Of a DNA stretch of 64,000 nt, positions 13,783-50,974 are shown piece after piece. Position 1 is the stretch's first letter. Each line of letters opens with the position of its first letter. The DNA lies in NCBI RefSeq assembly GCF_003985155.1, contig NZ_ML133688.1:62001-126000 (forward strand). Reading direction: 5' to 3'. The notes beneath the pieces were generated by a model, which made no database searches, was not told the DNA's origin, and saw only the letters and a program-made list of their open reading frames with translations. Position numbers and translations under genes: made by a program. The DNA comes from Rhizobium vallis. Lineage in GTDB: Bacteria; Pseudomonadota; Alphaproteobacteria; Rhizobiales; Rhizobiaceae.

Positions 13783-15048
13783 CTAGCGGATCAGGATCGC
13801 CCGGAAATCATTGACGTTGGTTCCGGTCGGTCCGGTCTCGAAGAGGTCGCCGATGGCCTTGAAGGCGGAATAGCTATCATTGCCGTCGAGCAGCCGGCGC
13901 GGGTCGAGGCCGGCAGCGCGCAGGCGCCTCACGGTGCTTCCGTCGGCAAAGGCGCCGGCATTGTCTTCCGATCCGTCGATCCCGTCCGTATCGGCTGCCA
14001 GGACATGAATGCCCTCCTGTCCATCGATCGCCAGCGCCGTGGCGAGGGTGAATTCGCCATTACGCCCGCCCTTGCCGCCCTTGGCACGCAGCGTCACCGT
14101 CGTTTCGCCACCGGAGAGGATGACGACGGGCTTCGAAAACGGCCGGTCGCGGCCGAGCACTTCGCGGGCGATCGCCGCATGTACCAGCGCCACGTCGCGC
14201 GATTCCCCCTCGATCGCATCCGACAGGATGACGGGCGTGATGCCCTGCGCCCTCGCAACGGCCGCCGCCGCCTCCAGCGACACGCCGGCAGAGGCAATGA
14301 TGTGGTGCTCGTGACCTGCAAATACCGGATCATCGGGTCGCGGGGCGTCCGCCTGCGGTGAATTCAAGTGATCGAGCGCTGCCTGCGGCAGCTGCAGGCC
14401 ATATTGACGGACGATCTCCAGCGCCTCATGCCGTGTCGAACCATCAGGCACCGTCGGCCCCGAGGCGACATGCGCCGGGTTGTCTCCGGGAATGTCGGAA
14501 ACGATCAGGCTGACGACCCTCGCTCTGGTCGCTGCAGCAAGTCTGCCGCCCTTGATGGTCGAGAGATGCTTGCGCACGACGTTCATCGCCGAGATCGGTG
14601 CGCCGGAGGCGAGCAGCATCTCGTTGAGGGTGATCTCGTCTTCGAGCGCCAGCCCTTCCGGCGGGGCGGGCAGCAGCGCCGAGCCGCCGCCGCAGATCAG
14701 CGCGATGACGAGATCGTCTTCTGTCAGTCCGCCAACCGTCTCCATCAGCCGTCTTGCCGCGGCAAGCCCTGCGGCATCGGGTACAGGATGCGCGGCCTCG
14801 ACGATCTCGATATCGCGCGTCTCGCAGCCATAGCCGTAGCGGGTGACGACCACACCTTCCAGCTTTCCATCCCAGATGCTTTCCAGTGCTCGCGCCATTT
14901 GTGCTGCGCCCTTGCCGGCGCCGATCACCACGGTTCTTCCCTTCGGCTTATTTGGAAGCTTCGCCTTGATGCCGGTCAGCGGATCGGCGGCGCGAACCCC
15001 CGCGTCGAACAGGCTTTTCAGGAAAGCGCGGGGAGGAGTTAATGTCAT
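13783..15048 (-). CDS. gckA: Glycerate 2-kinase (MOFRL family; GckA/TtuD type)
   Basis: A 421-residue enzyme phosphorylating D-glycerate to 2-phosphoglycerate, feeding serine-cycle or tartrate/hydroxypyruvate carbon into glycolysis. Diagnostic text includes [13 protein letters not shown] near the N-terminus, [16 protein letters not shown], the [16 protein letters not shown] helix, and the C-terminal MOFRL stretch [18 protein letters not shown]. Older annotations call this family hydroxypyruvate reductase. No other glycerate pathway gene lies beside it. Confidence 0.9.
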
Positions 15049-46446: not shown

Positions 46447-49422
46447 ATGACGAATATCGCGCAGATGCAGGAACAGCGTCTCGAAGCACTTCGACTGACG
46501 AAGTCGGGTGCGCCTGAATTGCCGTCCAACCCGTTTTTCGGGGTCGGCCCGATCACCGATGCGACCACCGACGAAGTGGATAGCCGCCTGCGGCGCATCG
46601 CCTTCGATGCGTGGATCGAGAAGACCTATCGCAAGTTCGACGACAAGGGCAACGATATCGGCGGCTTCACCACGGCCGAGATTTCCCGCAGCATGCACCG
46701 CGGTTATCCGGCAGATAAGATCCTGACCGACATGATGCGGGCGATCCACAGCTACTTCCATTTCCCGAAGAAGAACCGCATGGCGGTGGGGCTTGGCGGC
46801 GGCCACAGTGGCTACACCGTCTGCGTCCAGCATCTGATGAATGCCAACGACGCCAACCAGCGCGTCTATGTCGATACGCCGCGCCCGGAAAGCGATCCGT
46901 CTCGGGCAGCCGGCTTCTTCCGTCAGTCCTGGGCCACGCAGCTGATCGAGATGCAGCGCTTTGCCGAAAAGGGCTGCGAGAGCCGCATTCATTTTGCCGC
47001 CTCCGAAGGCGTGATCCCGACGGCCGCCGAGCTCTCCGATCTCGGCGTGTCGATCTTCGTCGGTGTCGGCCACGAGACCACAGGCGCCAACGCCTATACG
47101 AGCCGTGAGATCCACGAGTTGCTGAACTGGATCGACCGCGATCCGGCAAACCACCATGCGGTATTTGACGCCACGTCAATGCTCGGCGCCATGCCCTGGG
47201 AGCCCGAACTGGTCGACGCCGTGATGGCGAAATGCTGCCTGTTCATGCCGTTCCAGAAGGCGATCGGCGGGATCTCCGGATATTTCGTCGCCTCCTTCAC
47301 GCCGCATGCCCTGGCGCTTGTCGAGAAGAACCAGCAGGATCCCGCCTGGGCGATCCCGCGCCAGCTGAAGATCGCGCCGCCAATCGATGCGCGCCAGCCG
47401 CTTTCAGCCAAGCGCTCCGTGGATGCCGGGCCGTTCTTCGATGCCGGGGAAGACCGCATGCTCGGCGGCGTCATCAACACCTACAGCGCGCTCGCCTTTG
47501 CCGAAACCACGTTCGGCCTCCTGCAGTCTGAGGCGCGGGTCGGCTCGGTGGTCGAGCTCAACCAGCGCTCCGCCGCCAATCGGGCGGTGATCGACGAGTG
47601 GGTGAAGTCGCATCCGCTCCTGTCGCTGACCGTCACCGATGCCGAGCGGCGCGGCGCGGCGGTAACGCTCCTGAAGGTGGAGGATACCGGCATCACCGAT
47701 CCGGCCATCCATGCGCGCATCATTGCCCGGTCGAAACAGCTGCTCGGCTACGAAGGCATTACCCATCCGAATGGCGAATTTGAGCCCGGTCTCGACGCGG
47801 CGCGCTACGTCAATGCGTTCCCGGGAACGCCTGGCGACTACCGTGCCTGGGTCGGCGGCATCCGCGAGCCGGCAGATGTCGTAGCCCTCTTGGAAAACCT
47901 GCAATATGCCTATCTGCGCGCCAAGATCGTCGTTCTCGAAGAGGAACTGGTGAAGGAGGGCGTGACGTTTGACGCGCCCGCGACGGCCGGCACAGCGGTC
48001 CGCAAGGACGATCCGCAACGCGTCTACAAGGTGCTGATCGCCGATCTGGTCGGCCTGCGCCTCGGCGCGGACGGCAAGCCCGACCACAGCGAAATCCGGG
48101 CCTATATCGAGGAAAAGGGAGGCGTCTTCCATGCCGGCCCGATCGGCGACGGCGAGGCACTGGAGACGGGGCGCATCCACTTCTTCTATCAACCCGATCT
48201 CAGCACCGAGGCGGAAATCCTGCCGCAGACGGACAGGGGCCAGTATCACGCCTTGATCGCGGCGGCGACCTTCATCCCGAAGGCTTCCGTCTTCCCGCTC
48301 GGCGGCGTGCGCATCGGCGCGGGGACCGGCAACATGGGCTCGGCTTCCTGGGGCGGTGGCAACGGCGAGGGCGGTGAGGCTCCGCTGATGAATACCCCCG
48401 GCATCAACAGCCGGGCAACCGCCCAGATGGCGGTGAAGGCGATCCTCAAGGTCGTGCCCGATCTGCCGGTCGACAGGCTGCACCAGATGGTCGCCAGCGG
48501 CGATTTCGATACCGGGCGCCAGCTCAAGGATTTCCCGACCGCCAAGCTGGAGGGCCGGAAAATCGCCGTCCTCGGCTACGGCAATATCGGCCGCGAAGTC
48601 GCCAAGCTCGCCAAGGCCTTCGGCATGAAGGTGGCGATCTACGCCCGCCAGCATCACCAGCGCTGGATCGAGGCGGAAGGTTTTGGCTATGCCGCAAGCC
48701 CAGTCGAAGCGGCGACCGGCGCCGATGTGCTCTCGGTCCATATCGGTCTCGGCCGCCTGGATGCTTCAACCGGCGTTTACTCAAATGCCGGTGTCGTCGA
48801 CAGCAGGGTCCTCGACGCGATGAACGACGGTGCGGTGCTGGTCAATTACGACCGGGGCGAGGTCGTCGATGCCGCGGCACTCGACCGGGCGCTGGCATCA
48901 GGCAAGATCGCCCATGCGGCGATTGACGCCGACCTCTTCAAGGATGCCGCGACGGGCAAGCTCAGCGGACCGATGCTGCCCTACCTGCCGCTGGAAGAGC
49001 GCCACAAGGGTAAGCTGGAACTGCTGCCGCACGCAGCCGCCGATACCGATCATCCCTCGCGGGTGACCGGCGCCAAGCAGGCGGTCGACCAGATCTTCGA
49101 TGTCATCCGGTTCAAGTCGGTCACCAATCTCAAGGGCGACCTGCCCGAGGGTTACGCCTTGGCGGGCAGCCGCACGCCGGCGGGGATCGGCAAGGTGACG
49201 AAACGGGTAGTCGGCGAGATCGTCGACAAGTCGGAGCTGCTCGACGAGTTGCGGCGGACTTCAGAAAAGGTCGCAGCCATCGTCGGTGCGCTTTCCGCCA
49301 TCTCCGACCCGAACCATCGCGACCGGATCGTCGATCGTTACACCGGTCTGCTGGTCGAAAGCGCTGGGCGGCAGCGGGTGCTTCTCGAGCAGCTTGGCCT
49401 TTACGGACCGGCAGGAGAGTAG
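46447..49422 (+). CDS. Fusion: SerC-like aminotransferase plus SerA-like 2-hydroxyacid dehydrogenase
   Basis: A 991-residue polypeptide with two enzymes. Residues 1 to about 460 are a class V PLP fold like phosphoserine aminotransferase; Asp241 (FDATS) and Lys271 (PFQKAIGG, compare QKNIG of SerC) fit the cofactor sites. From about 510 to 991 it is a D-isomer 2-hydroxyacid dehydrogenase: NAD motif VLGYGNIGREV at 709-718, Arg803 (NYDRGE) and His862 (LLPHAA) in catalytic positions. The usual Glu of DVFxxEP is not obvious (DADLFKD). A Gly-rich insert precedes MNTPGINSRAT. No ACT domain. The ORF extends 62 codons upstream but ATG 46447 begins conserved-looking sequence. It may oxidise and transaminate 3-phosphoglycerate or a related acid in one chain; substrate unproven. 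Confidence 0.88.
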   Translation: MTNIAQMQEQRLEALRLTKSGAPELPSNPFFGVGPITDATTDEVDSRLRRIAFDAWIEKTYRKFDDKGNDIGGFTTAEISRSMHRGYPADKILTDMMRAIHSYFHFPKKNRMAVGLGGGHSGYTVCVQHLMNANDANQRVYVDTPRPESDPSRAAGFFRQSWATQLIEMQRFAEKGCESRIHFAASEGVIPTAAELSDLGVSIFVGVGHETTGANAYTSREIHELLNWIDRDPANHHAVFDATSMLGAMPWEPELVDAVMAKCCLFMPFQKAIGGISGYFVASFTPHALALVEKNQQDPAWAIPRQLKIAPPIDARQPLSAKRSVDAGPFFDAGEDRMLGGVINTYSALAFAETTFGLLQSEARVGSVVELNQRSAANRAVIDEWVKSHPLLSLTVTDAERRGAAVTLLKVEDTGITDPAIHARIIARSKQLLGYEGITHPNGEFEPGLDAARYVNAFPGTPGDYRAWVGGIREPADVVALLENLQYAYLRAKIVVLEEELVKEGVTFDAPATAGTAVRKDDPQRVYKVLIADLVGLRLGADGKPDHSEIRAYIEEKGGVFHAGPIGDGEALETGRIHFFYQPDLSTEAEILPQTDRGQYHALIAAATFIPKASVFPLGGVRIGAGTGNMGSASWGGGNGEGGEAPLMNTPGINSRATAQMAVKAILKVVPDLPVDRLHQMVASGDFDTGRQLKDFPTAKLEGRKIAVLGYGNIGREVAKLAKAFGMKVAIYARQHHQRWIEAEGFGYAASPVEAATGADVLSVHIGLGRLDASTGVYSNAGVVDSRVLDAMNDGAVLVNYDRGEVVDAAALDRALASGKIAHAAIDADLFKDAATGKLSGPMLPYLPLEERHKGKLELLPHAAADTDHPSRVTGAKQAVDQIFDVIRFKSVTNLKGDLPEGYALAGSRTPAGIGKVTKRVVGEIVDKSELLDELRRTSEKVAAIVGALSAISDPNHRDRIVDRYTGLLVESAGRQRVLLEQLGLYGPAGE

Positions 49423-49547
49423 CCGCCGTGGCGACGGATGAGTGCTGATCGTTCCCGGCTTCGGGCACCGCTTGCAAGTGCCCGAAGCCCTGACCCCGGC
49501 TGAAGCGCGTCGCACCGAACCTGGTTCATGCGACGCGCTTTGGCTGT

Positions 49548-50420
49548 TCAGGCCCTGTCGATGTGAACGCGCATGCGCCCGGCCAGATCCTGGATATACT
49601 GCCAGGCGACGCGACCGGAGCGCGCTCCGCGCGTCGTCGCCCATTCCAGCGCTTCGGCATGCATCTTGGCGCGTTCGAGCCCGAGCTTGAAGTGATCGGC
49701 ATAGCCGTCGATCATGCCGAGATAGTCTTCCTGGCTGCATTTGTGGAAGCCGAGCCAGAGCCCGAAGCGGTCGGAAAGCGAAACTTTCTCCTCGACCGCC
49801 TCCGACGGATTGATCGCCGTCGACTGCTCGTTTTCCATCATGTGACGCGGCAGGAGATGGCGCCGGTTCGACGTGGCGTAGAACAGCACATTGTCCGGCC
49901 GGCCCTCAACGCCACCGTCGAGCGCTGCCTTCAGCGATTTGTAGGCGGTGTCGTCGTGATCGAAGGAGAGGTCGTCGCAGAAGACGATTACGCGGTAGGG
50001 CGTGTCCTTCAGCAGGTCGAGCAGGGTAGGCAGACTGGCGATATCCTCGCGATGGACCTCGACGAGCTTCAGCGAGACGCCGCTCTCGCGCCTGACATCC
50101 TCGTGCACGGCTTTGACCAGGGAGGATTTGCCCATGCCGCGCGCGCCCCAAAGCAGCACGTTGTTGGCGGCATAGCCTTCAGCGAAGCGCACGGTATTCT
50201 CATGCAGGATATCGCGTACGTGGTCGACGCCGCGGATGAGCTTCAATTCCACGCGGTTCGGCCTCTTGACCGGCTGCAGATGCTGGCGCAGCGGCGCCCA
50301 GACGAAACAGTCGGCCGCATCCCAGTCGTTGAGAGCAGGCGCCGGCCCGGCAAGACGCTCGACGGCTGCGGCGAGCCGTTTCAGCTCGGCAAGAAGGGCG
50401 GTGGTGGGTTCCTCGGTCAT
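49548..50420 (-). CDS. DUF815 family AAA-like ATPase
   Basis: 290 residues. Walker A is GARGMGKSSLVKA near residue 88, Walker B is VIVFCDDLSFD, and an arginine-finger region SNRRHLLP follows. No membrane segment. The family is widespread and its partner is unknown. The start at 50420 (MTEEP) follows GAGGCC; upstream extension lacks coding character. Divergent from yajC. Confidence 0.88.
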   Translation of the reverse strand: MTEEPTTALLAELKRLAAAVERLAGPAPALNDWDAADCFVWAPLRQHLQPVKRPNRVELKLIRGVDHVRDILHENTVRFAEGYAANNVLLWGARGMGKSSLVKAVHEDVRRESGVSLKLVEVHREDIASLPTLLDLLKDTPYRVIVFCDDLSFDHDDTAYKSLKAALDGGVEGRPDNVLFYATSNRRHLLPRHMMENEQSTAINPSEAVEEKVSLSDRFGLWLGFHKCSQEDYLGMIDGYADHFKLGLERAKMHAEALEWATTRGARSGRVAWQYIQDLAGRMRVHIDRA

Positions 50421-50626
50421 CGCAGGCCTCCTGATCTCTTGCTGCGGCAATCCGCTTAGATCTTTCGATGCCGGGTAGCATGGCGTTTTACCGGCGGAAA
50501 GGTTATGAGGCAGCGGAATCGGTACGGTTTCCGGCTGTTTCTGTTGCATTCATCGAAGCCGTAACTATAGTCCGGCAACCTGAAAAGAGAGGCGGCGTTC
50601 CGCCGCCAAAGCCTGAGGAGTTTAGC

Positions 50627-50974
50627 ATGTTCATCACCCCGGCATTCGCCCAGAGCGCGACCGACGCCACATCGGCATTCGGTGGCTCCGGTTTCGAAAT
50701 GATCATCCTGTTCGTGCCGCTGATGGTCGTCTGGTACTTCCTGCTGATCCGCCCGCAGCGCGCTCAGGCCAAGAAGCGCGAAGAAACCCTGAAGGCGATC
50801 CGCCGCGGCGATCAGGTCGTCACCGGCGGCGGTCTCGTCGGCAAGGTCACCAAGGTCGTCGACGACAAGGAAGTCGAAGTCGAAATCGCTGAAGGCGTGC
50901 GCGTGCGCATCGTCCGCAGCGGCATTTCCGAAGTTCGCGTCAAGGGTGAACCCGTCAAGGCCGACGCAGCGTAA
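50627..50974 (+). CDS. yajC: Preprotein translocase subunit YajC
   Basis: 115 residues with one membrane helix (MIILFVPLMVVWYFLLIRPQRAQ), the YajC signature IRPQ-x-K-x, and a cytoplasmic beta-rich domain (VVTGGGLVGKVTKV). It binds SecDF-YidC. TGAGGAG precedes the ATG. secDF begins 44 bp later. Confidence 0.95.
   Translation: MFITPAFAQSATDATSAFGGSGFEMIILFVPLMVVWYFLLIRPQRAQAKKREETLKAIRRGDQVVTGGGLVGKVTKVVDDKEVEVEIAEGVRVRIVRSGISEVRVKGEPVKADAA

Follow-up and report, generated by a model that had tools for sequence, protein, structure and literature searches.

The DNA analyzed here, hereafter the window, is a stretch of 64,000 nucleotides from Rhizobium vallis (assembly GCF_003985155.1, contig NZ_ML133688.1, positions 62,001 to 126,000 of the forward strand). 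It carries a gene in which an aminotransferase resembling the phosphoserine aminotransferase SerC is joined in frame to a dehydrogenase resembling the phosphoglycerate dehydrogenase (PGDH) SerA. A sequence-only reading had proposed this fusion and had located in its 991-residue open frame Asp241, Lys271, GYGNIG at 710–715, Arg803, and His862, all of which were found as claimed. The neighboring genes, named by eye, are nlpD-like on one side and code for a DUF815-like ATPase on the other. The features of the fusion are listed below; row counts refer to the 41-row and 105-row alignments introduced in the following paragraphs.

46447..49422, plus strand: fusion gene, 991 amino acids plus stop (translation and full-length homologs)
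46447..47949, plus strand: aminotransferase half, residues 1–501, pyridoxal phosphate (PLP) fold type I, like SerC and alanine:glyoxylate aminotransferase (AGT) (NCBIfam PRK03080, VIA-align)
47167..47169, plus strand: Asp241, invariant in 41/41 rows, aligned with the Asp of DATSA in the genome's own SerC
47257..47259, plus strand: Lys271, invariant in 41/41 rows, aligned with WQK of the genome's own SerC
47965..48009, plus strand: flexible linker, residues 507–521, predicted local distance difference test (pLDDT) score below 50
48010..49161, plus strand: D-2-hydroxyacid dehydrogenase half, residues 522–905 (PF02826, VIA-align, hhalign)
48322..48381, plus strand: Gly/Asn/Trp loop, residues 626–645 (GTGNMGSASWGGGNGEGGEA), with six residues identical in 105/105 rows
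48574..48591, plus strand: GYGNIG dinucleotide-binding loop, residues 710–715, with G710, G712, and G715 in 105/105 rows
48643..48648, plus strand: Ala733-Arg734, closing the second Rossmann strand without an acid, 105/105 rows
48853..48855, plus strand: Arg803, 105/105 rows
48931..48933, plus strand: Asp829, possible stand-in for the missing catalytic Glu, 105/105 rows
49030..49032, plus strand: His862, 105/105 rows
49162..49419, plus strand: C-terminal tail, mostly helical, residues 906–991 (DSSP on the model)

Although the open frame reaches upstream to 46261, the start at 46447, from which translation yields 991 residues, was accepted because M1 is conserved in at least 90% of the 41 aligned rows. 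A scan of genome contigs matched 199 stretches, 176 of which encode a relative; 80 were kept, and 78 of these align from residue 7 or earlier to residue 986 or later at 59–96% identity, while the two remaining loci (L043 and L095) both start at contig ends. Lengths range from 983 to 997 amino acids across 85 full-length rows, some of which repeat one gene (L009 and L102 both represent the gene of the window, L106 is a repeat of L022, and L098 has the same sequence as L025). Given these lengths and the end-to-end homologs, a frameshift or an assembly join of two genes was rejected. D241, K271, G710, G712, G715, R803, and H862 are invariant in all 41 rows, so the fusion also survived a check of its cofactor residues after alignment. 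Measured against seven relatives, the ratio of nonsynonymous to synonymous substitution rates is 0.035–0.076 for the aminotransferase half and 0.11–0.17 for the dehydrogenase half, and the protein is therefore under purifying selection, the dehydrogenase half included. The predicted model has a mean pLDDT of 81 and a predicted template modeling score of 0.63, but the mutual placement of the two halves is not fixed by it because the pLDDT of the linker falls below 50. The fusion is a real, conserved, uncharacterized protein in which known folds stand in a new arrangement.

The N-terminal half is predicted to adopt a SerC/AGT-type aminotransferase fold. This assignment rests on the model because no convincing PDB sequence match was obtained, a 41-row profile of this half finding none below E 0.3. 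VIA-align superposed 354 residues of the model on a putative phosphoserine aminotransferase of M. tuberculosis (Z 26.3, 3.2 Å) and gave Z 24.6 to AGT, with which serine as the amino donor would be compatible. At E values up to 10, no Pfam aminotransferase family, class V PF00266 included, matched the fusion, and the matches to the SerC equivalogs fell short of their cut-offs (PRK03080, 54–57 bits, best 56.9, against 477; TIGR01365, 38–40 bits against 448). Alignment with the genome's own SerC by hhalign (96.5–97.7%) nevertheless pairs D241, K271, H84-R85, and R466 with Asp, Lys, His-Arg, and Arg, and we take Asp241 to be the residue that contacts the PLP pyridine and Lys271 to be the Schiff-base Lys. 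The SerC fold is thus found by model comparison, and the PLP-binding Asp and Lys by alignment. His84-Arg85 matches the HR of that SerC, a motif also carried by serine:glyoxylate aminotransferases. At E ≤ 1e-8, the aminotransferase half used alone as a query matched 4 of the 299 genomes searched, each of which carries the full fusion; this suggests a remote subfamily seen here only in fused form. A plasmid copy in Ensifer adhaerens (L105:5998-7746), annotated as a hypothetical protein, contains residues 3–583 only and ends just inside the dehydrogenase half.

The C-terminal half belongs to the D-2-hydroxyacid dehydrogenases. It matches PF02826 at 97.4 bits against a curated cut-off of 25.1, reaches a VIA-align Z of about 24 to PGDH and 2-hydroxyacid dehydrogenases, and aligns by hhalign with four of the genome's own dehydrogenases at probabilities of 99.7–99.9. 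Its active site was compared across 105 rows: 22 come from stand-alone dehydrogenases and 83 from fusions (82 of them distinct), after removal of the repeats L009, L102, and L022. R803, H862, D827, D829, F831, G710, G712, G715, A733, and R734 are identical in all of them, and D866 varies in one. The family signature of GxGxxG with an active-site Arg and His is present in every row; Arg803 presumably binds the substrate carboxylate, and His862 is presumably the catalytic His. NADPH enzymes typically have an Arg and no acid where the second Rossmann strand ends, and the invariant Arg734 together with the lack of an acid at the cofactor site suggests a preference for NADPH.

The catalytic Glu of the Arg-Glu-His triad, by contrast, is missing: neither candidate position, 832 by simple spacing or 834 by hhalign, conserves it across the 105 rows. 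Position 832 is K in 61 rows and otherwise R, S, V, T, and others, with Glu in 4, three of them of a kinase-fused form described below, and position 834 is Ala in 79 rows and Glu in none; the sequence-only reading had rightly called this Glu not obvious, both positions being variable and rarely acidic. Asp829 may do the work of the missing residue. Loss of the Glu would also suit a dehydrogenase half that is no longer an enzyme and acts as a cofactor-binding sensor or scaffold, but this is extremely improbable given that no row, stand-alone forms included, departs from Arg803, His862, Asp829, or the NAD(P) loop, and that this half is under purifying selection. The Gly-rich insert previously described in the substrate domain is a real loop, more precisely a conserved, rewritten one that hhalign shows to be about five residues longer than its counterpart in the genome's own SerA; G626, T627, G628, N629, M630, and W635 are identical in all fusion and stand-alone rows. 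The reported absence of a feedback ACT domain was confirmed, no ACT family of Pfam matching the fusion at E up to 10, although a C-terminal ACT domain is not present in all PGDHs.

The sequence-only reading had placed the fusion in serine synthesis, where SerA acts immediately before SerC and an unstable keto acid could be channeled between them. Neither this assignment nor such channeling was supported. The search for separate genes that it had suggested revealed an adjacent pair in the genome, serC at C7:307903-309021 adjoining a long serA, which would make such a role redundant. The role is further disfavored by the low scores of both halves (TIGR01327, the SerA equivalog, 71.2 bits against a cut-off of 454; the SerC match, 57 against 477) and by the missing Arg of the SerA substrate loop, which we assume contacts the phosphate and which aligns with Ala606, an Ala in 105/105 rows. 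It is therefore distinctly improbable that the fusion is a SerA–SerC type enzyme acting on phosphorylated substrates, whether 3-phosphoglycerate and phosphoserine or, as in PdxB–SerC, 4-phosphoerythronate. PGDH and phosphoserine transaminase are among the nearest curated models, His84-Arg85 aligns with the SerC motif, and eukaryotic fusions of PGDH and phosphoserine aminotransferase (PSAT) are known (accessible part of PMC5715807); yet the domain order is reversed, and the product of a phosphorylated route would need no glycerate kinase, the enzyme with which relatives of the dehydrogenase half are linked.

This linkage emerged from the 22 stand-alone loci that were read (20 of the 36 family matches plus two plasmid loci), in 19 of which the dehydrogenase is an open gene of 457–485 amino acids. 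In three loci of one genus (L128, L129, and L130), the dehydrogenase runs in frame into a DUF4147 and MOFRL glycerate 2-kinase, yielding 819 amino acids, and the kinase takes the place of the C-terminal tail that most stand-alone relatives retain; the kinase domains were identified by Pfam in L128 and by similarity in the other two. The kinase is the next gene on the same strand in L139, L140, L142, and L146, and follows on the same strand after about 0.75 kb in L143, so that it is fused to or follows the stand-alone dehydrogenase in 8 of 22 loci from six genera. Next to the full fusion, L036 has an intact kinase frame that begins 3 bases past the fusion's stop codon. In four further loci (L119 being the same locus as L023), kinase remnants with truncations, internal deletions, or other damage begin within about 20 bases of the fusion end. 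The coordinates of these remnants, and of the window's separate kinase gene, are as follows.

L023:8980-9346: decayed kinase remnant right after the intact fusion gene
L028:8988-9404: decayed kinase remnant right after the intact fusion gene
L029:8992-9251: decayed kinase remnant right after the intact fusion gene
L122:1156-1491: decayed kinase remnant right after the intact fusion gene
13783..15048, minus strand: separate glycerate 2-kinase gene of the window (PF13660, E 1.8e-79; NCBIfam, 243 bits against a cut-off of 550)

The downstream search covered 106 full-length rows, not all from distinct genomes and nine with fewer than 1300 bases downstream. These remnants are most simply read as traces of a fusion–kinase operon that fell into decay in several rhizobia. 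For the window's own copy, no credible kinase remnant was found in 49301–50700; the lowest values among the matches listed (0.003) are antisense and away from the fusion end. The window's kinase gene lies about 31 kb from the fusion, outside its operon, and the genome has a second copy; the MOFRL kinase family is present in 29 of the 36 fusion-bearing genomes searched. In the dehydrogenase tree, L136 nests among the fusions with support of 99/94, and L143 is placed next to six of them (99/41), positions that suggest loss of the aminotransferase half. The remaining 20 stand-alone loci form one weakly supported group (83/97), and long outgroup branches leave the root unsure. Two further observations concern the stand-alone forms. 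Just 5' of the dehydrogenase–kinase fusion lie a gene with a RES domain and a small companion gene, which may form a toxin–antitoxin pair (L128:9533-10677, similarly in L129 and L130). In Shinella, a stand-alone dehydrogenase frame without a listed gene (L103:9001-10398) precedes phnF and the phn C–P lyase cluster by about 0.5 kb.

A different neighbor, a protein of about 472 amino acids or a shorter-called form of it, follows the fusion in two Nitrosomonas, three SAR324, and one delta metagenome-assembled genome (MAG). The six genes, each directly 3' of the fusion, are listed below.

L090:3989-5410: gene for the approximately 472-amino-acid protein
L091:3152-4567: gene for the approximately 472-amino-acid protein
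L092:4412-5827: gene for the approximately 472-amino-acid protein
L087:6269-7576: gene for the approximately 472-amino-acid protein
L095:3037-4347: gene for the approximately 472-amino-acid protein
L096:9030-10457: gene for the approximately 472-amino-acid protein

The protein occurs in 6 of 36 fusion-bearing genomes, each time as the fusion-adjacent copy by coordinates. It has no match in Pfam (one member tested), in NCBIfam (three members), or among PDB sequences (best E 2.2). Its model is poor (pLDDT 53), and the best Foldseek hits, choline kinase and N-acetylhexosamine kinase, have E values of 5e-3 to 8e-3, none reaching 0.001; an HNExKPAN...FDFDN pattern was judged kinase-like by eye. The protein is tentatively considered kinase-like and may represent a new small-molecule kinase family. 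No MOFRL kinase was found in 5 of the 6 genomes with this protein versus 2 of the 30 others (hypergeometric 3e-4, kinship uncorrected, several MAGs), a comparison confined to the MOFRL class among glycerate kinase classes. If the protein phosphorylates glycerate, it would add a new glycerate kinase to those known.

We propose that the fusion is a serine transaminase–hydroxypyruvate reductase that feeds D-glycerate to glycerate 2-kinase, a function whose substrates, cofactor preference, and direction we infer and to which we give about an even chance. Residues 1–501, the PLP half, would transaminate L-serine to hydroxypyruvate, and residues 522–905 would reduce hydroxypyruvate to D-glycerate, probably with NADPH. 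A glycerate 2-kinase, encoded by an adjacent gene, by an in-frame extension of the reductase gene (in some relatives), or at another site of the genome, would then convert D-glycerate to 2-phosphoglycerate, which would enter glycolysis or gluconeogenesis. For the hydroxypyruvate reductase activity, the supporting evidence is the kinase linkage: a reductase fused to glycerate 2-kinase would most simply make D-glycerate from hydroxypyruvate, and an aminotransferase supplying hydroxypyruvate would have to use serine. The Arg734 site fits a reductase, and the proposal is also favored by the fold matches to both phosphoserine and alanine:glyoxylate aminotransferases and by the six kinase-like neighbors, with the scarcity of MOFRL kinases in their genomes. 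The guess that the fusion serves a related but different acid was thus the better one, the kinase linkage pointing to D-glycerate as the product. The domain order, correctly described as opposite to SerA followed by SerC, ceases to be a puzzle if an amino acid is converted first to its keto acid and then to the hydroxy acid, since it would then be the pathway order. The same domain contents would also serve a phosphate-free serine pathway in which D-glycerate is oxidized to hydroxypyruvate and this is aminated to serine, and both steps are reversible in principle. That direction is very improbable, given that a linked kinase would draw D-glycerate off and that an NADP-type site would favor reduction.

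Several observations weigh against the proposed function. The catalytic Glu is missing, and the linkage to kinases is mainly that of the stand-alone dehydrogenase and not of the full fusion; most full-length fusions, the window's included, have neither kinase alongside. The kinase genes reach 149–243 bits where the glycerate 2-kinase equivalogs demand 550 and 670, so that their name rests on the Pfam families DUF4147 and MOFRL, and the genomes with the 472-amino-acid protein are partly MAGs of unstated completeness. The stand-alone dehydrogenases of L139, L142, L143, and L144 adjoin aldolases or aldehyde dehydrogenases and not aminotransferases, company that would be expected if hydroxypyruvate also came from sugar-acid breakdown there. 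The neighborhoods of the full fusion, moreover, vary by clade (BCCT transporter, amidase, and others) and yielded few conserved neighbors that could point to a function, on maps that are rough owing to several antisense open reading frames called in high-GC loci. This mixture, together with the remoteness of the aminotransferase half and the position of the Shinella dehydrogenase near phn genes, would suit an enzyme that turns another amino acid (homoserine, cysteate, and phosphono-amino acids are examples) into the corresponding 2-hydroxy acid with no involvement of glycerate. We consider this unlikely because the linkage between reductase and glycerate 2-kinase recurs in several lineages, including as an in-frame fusion, and because an intact kinase or its remnants follow the full fusion itself. 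An amidase gene stands directly 3' of the fusion in two Rhizobiales MAGs (L061:9027-10424 and L063:7081-8478).

The distribution of the fusion is patchy. Full-length copies occur in records named Rhizobium, Sinorhizobium/Ensifer, Mesorhizobium, Shinella, Paracoccus, Labrys, Kiloniella, Nitrosomonas, Leucothrix, SAR324, and others. Counting the genome of the window in each case, matches at E ≤ 1e-60 were found in 1 of 190 genomes of the class sample and in 11 of 61 near relatives, ten of these with the full fusion and one with the dehydrogenase alone. At E ≤ 1e-20, at least 8 of 398 genomes of the phylum sample and at least 57 of 394 of the family sample matched, both being lower bounds as two candidates per genome were scored; the 57 family genomes contain at least 25 full-length and at least 36 dehydrogenase-half matches, with three genomes holding both. 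The fusion gene is mobile, and horizontal transfer is the natural reading because of a near-empty site in relatives, a plasmid copy, and a dehydrogenase tree that mixes lineages. The gap between the nlpD-like and DUF815-like matches is 18–255 bp in 28 of the 29 other genomes whose DUF815 locus was read, among them five congeners that bear the full fusion elsewhere; the 29th has no nlpD match. The R. johnstonii copy sits on plasmid pRL9, and in the tree Paracoccus is intermixed with Rhizobiaceae and Mesorhizobium, and Nitrosomonas is joined to SAR324. Two IMG/VR contigs (L160:1-2967 and L161:457-3423) contain the full fusion near their ends; these copies may be cargo or may belong to host DNA that flanks a prophage. 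Taken as a whole, the most far-reaching picture is doubtful: a mobile, cross-phylum serine-to-2-phosphoglycerate module with a new aminotransferase subfamily, a reductase using Asp829 for Glu, and, in the 472-amino-acid protein, a new choline-kinase-like glycerate kinase family that would replace MOFRL in Nitrosomonas and SAR324.

Annotated plasmid records name the protein mostly 'NAD(P)-dependent oxidoreductase', which hides the aminotransferase half; a likely role in amino-acid breakdown has consequently been overlooked, although 176 stretches of the species-level collection encode a relative. A one-chain serine-to-glycerate enzyme, if this is what the fusion is, would offer a compact part for engineering one-carbon metabolism or photorespiratory bypasses, and it could be used to test whether fused steps spare the cell reactive hydroxypyruvate. 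The Glu-less dehydrogenase is a clean case for how a catalytic acid can be replaced, and the kinase-like neighbor is a candidate new enzyme family. Searches of the open literature showed no paper on the bacterial fusion among the papers listed, and the accessible parts of GapMind (PMC7311316) and of a phosphonate preprint (PMC12871164) do not treat it.

Each half can be set beside known enzymes. The SerC phosphoserine transaminases (TIGR01365, PRK03080) have the fold and the PLP-site Asp and Lys in common with the aminotransferase half, which is about 100 residues longer than the genome's own SerC (501 versus 392). The dehydrogenase half shares the Rossmann domain, Arg, His, and overall fold with the D-2-hydroxyacid dehydrogenases of PF02826 (PGDH, GhrB, and glyoxylate reductase) and differs in its missing catalytic Glu, its Gly/Asn/Trp loop, and its C-terminal helical tail. 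As a fusion, it resembles the PGDH–PSAT proteins for serine synthesis described for oomycetes, brown algae, and Thecamonas in the accessible parts of PMC2705460 and PMC5715807, in which a 2-hydroxyacid dehydrogenase is likewise part of the same chain as a SerC-type aminotransferase. In those proteins of the phosphorylated pathway, the metazoan-like PGDH is the N-terminal domain (accessible part of PMC2705460), whereas in the bacterial fusion the aminotransferase (1–501) precedes the dehydrogenase (522–905) and both halves fall short of the SerA and SerC cut-offs. According to the accessible part of PMC2063504, the class II glycerate kinases characterized so far convert D-glycerate to 2-phosphoglycerate; their roles lie in the serine cycle of methylotrophs and in the gluconeogenesis that animals carry out from serine. 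The route of serine:glyoxylate aminotransferase, hydroxypyruvate reductase, and glycerate 2-kinase comprises the same reactions as those proposed here and has the same kinase partner. Its enzymes are separate proteins, whereas the transaminase and reductase of the bacterial fusion would form one chain of distinct subfamilies.

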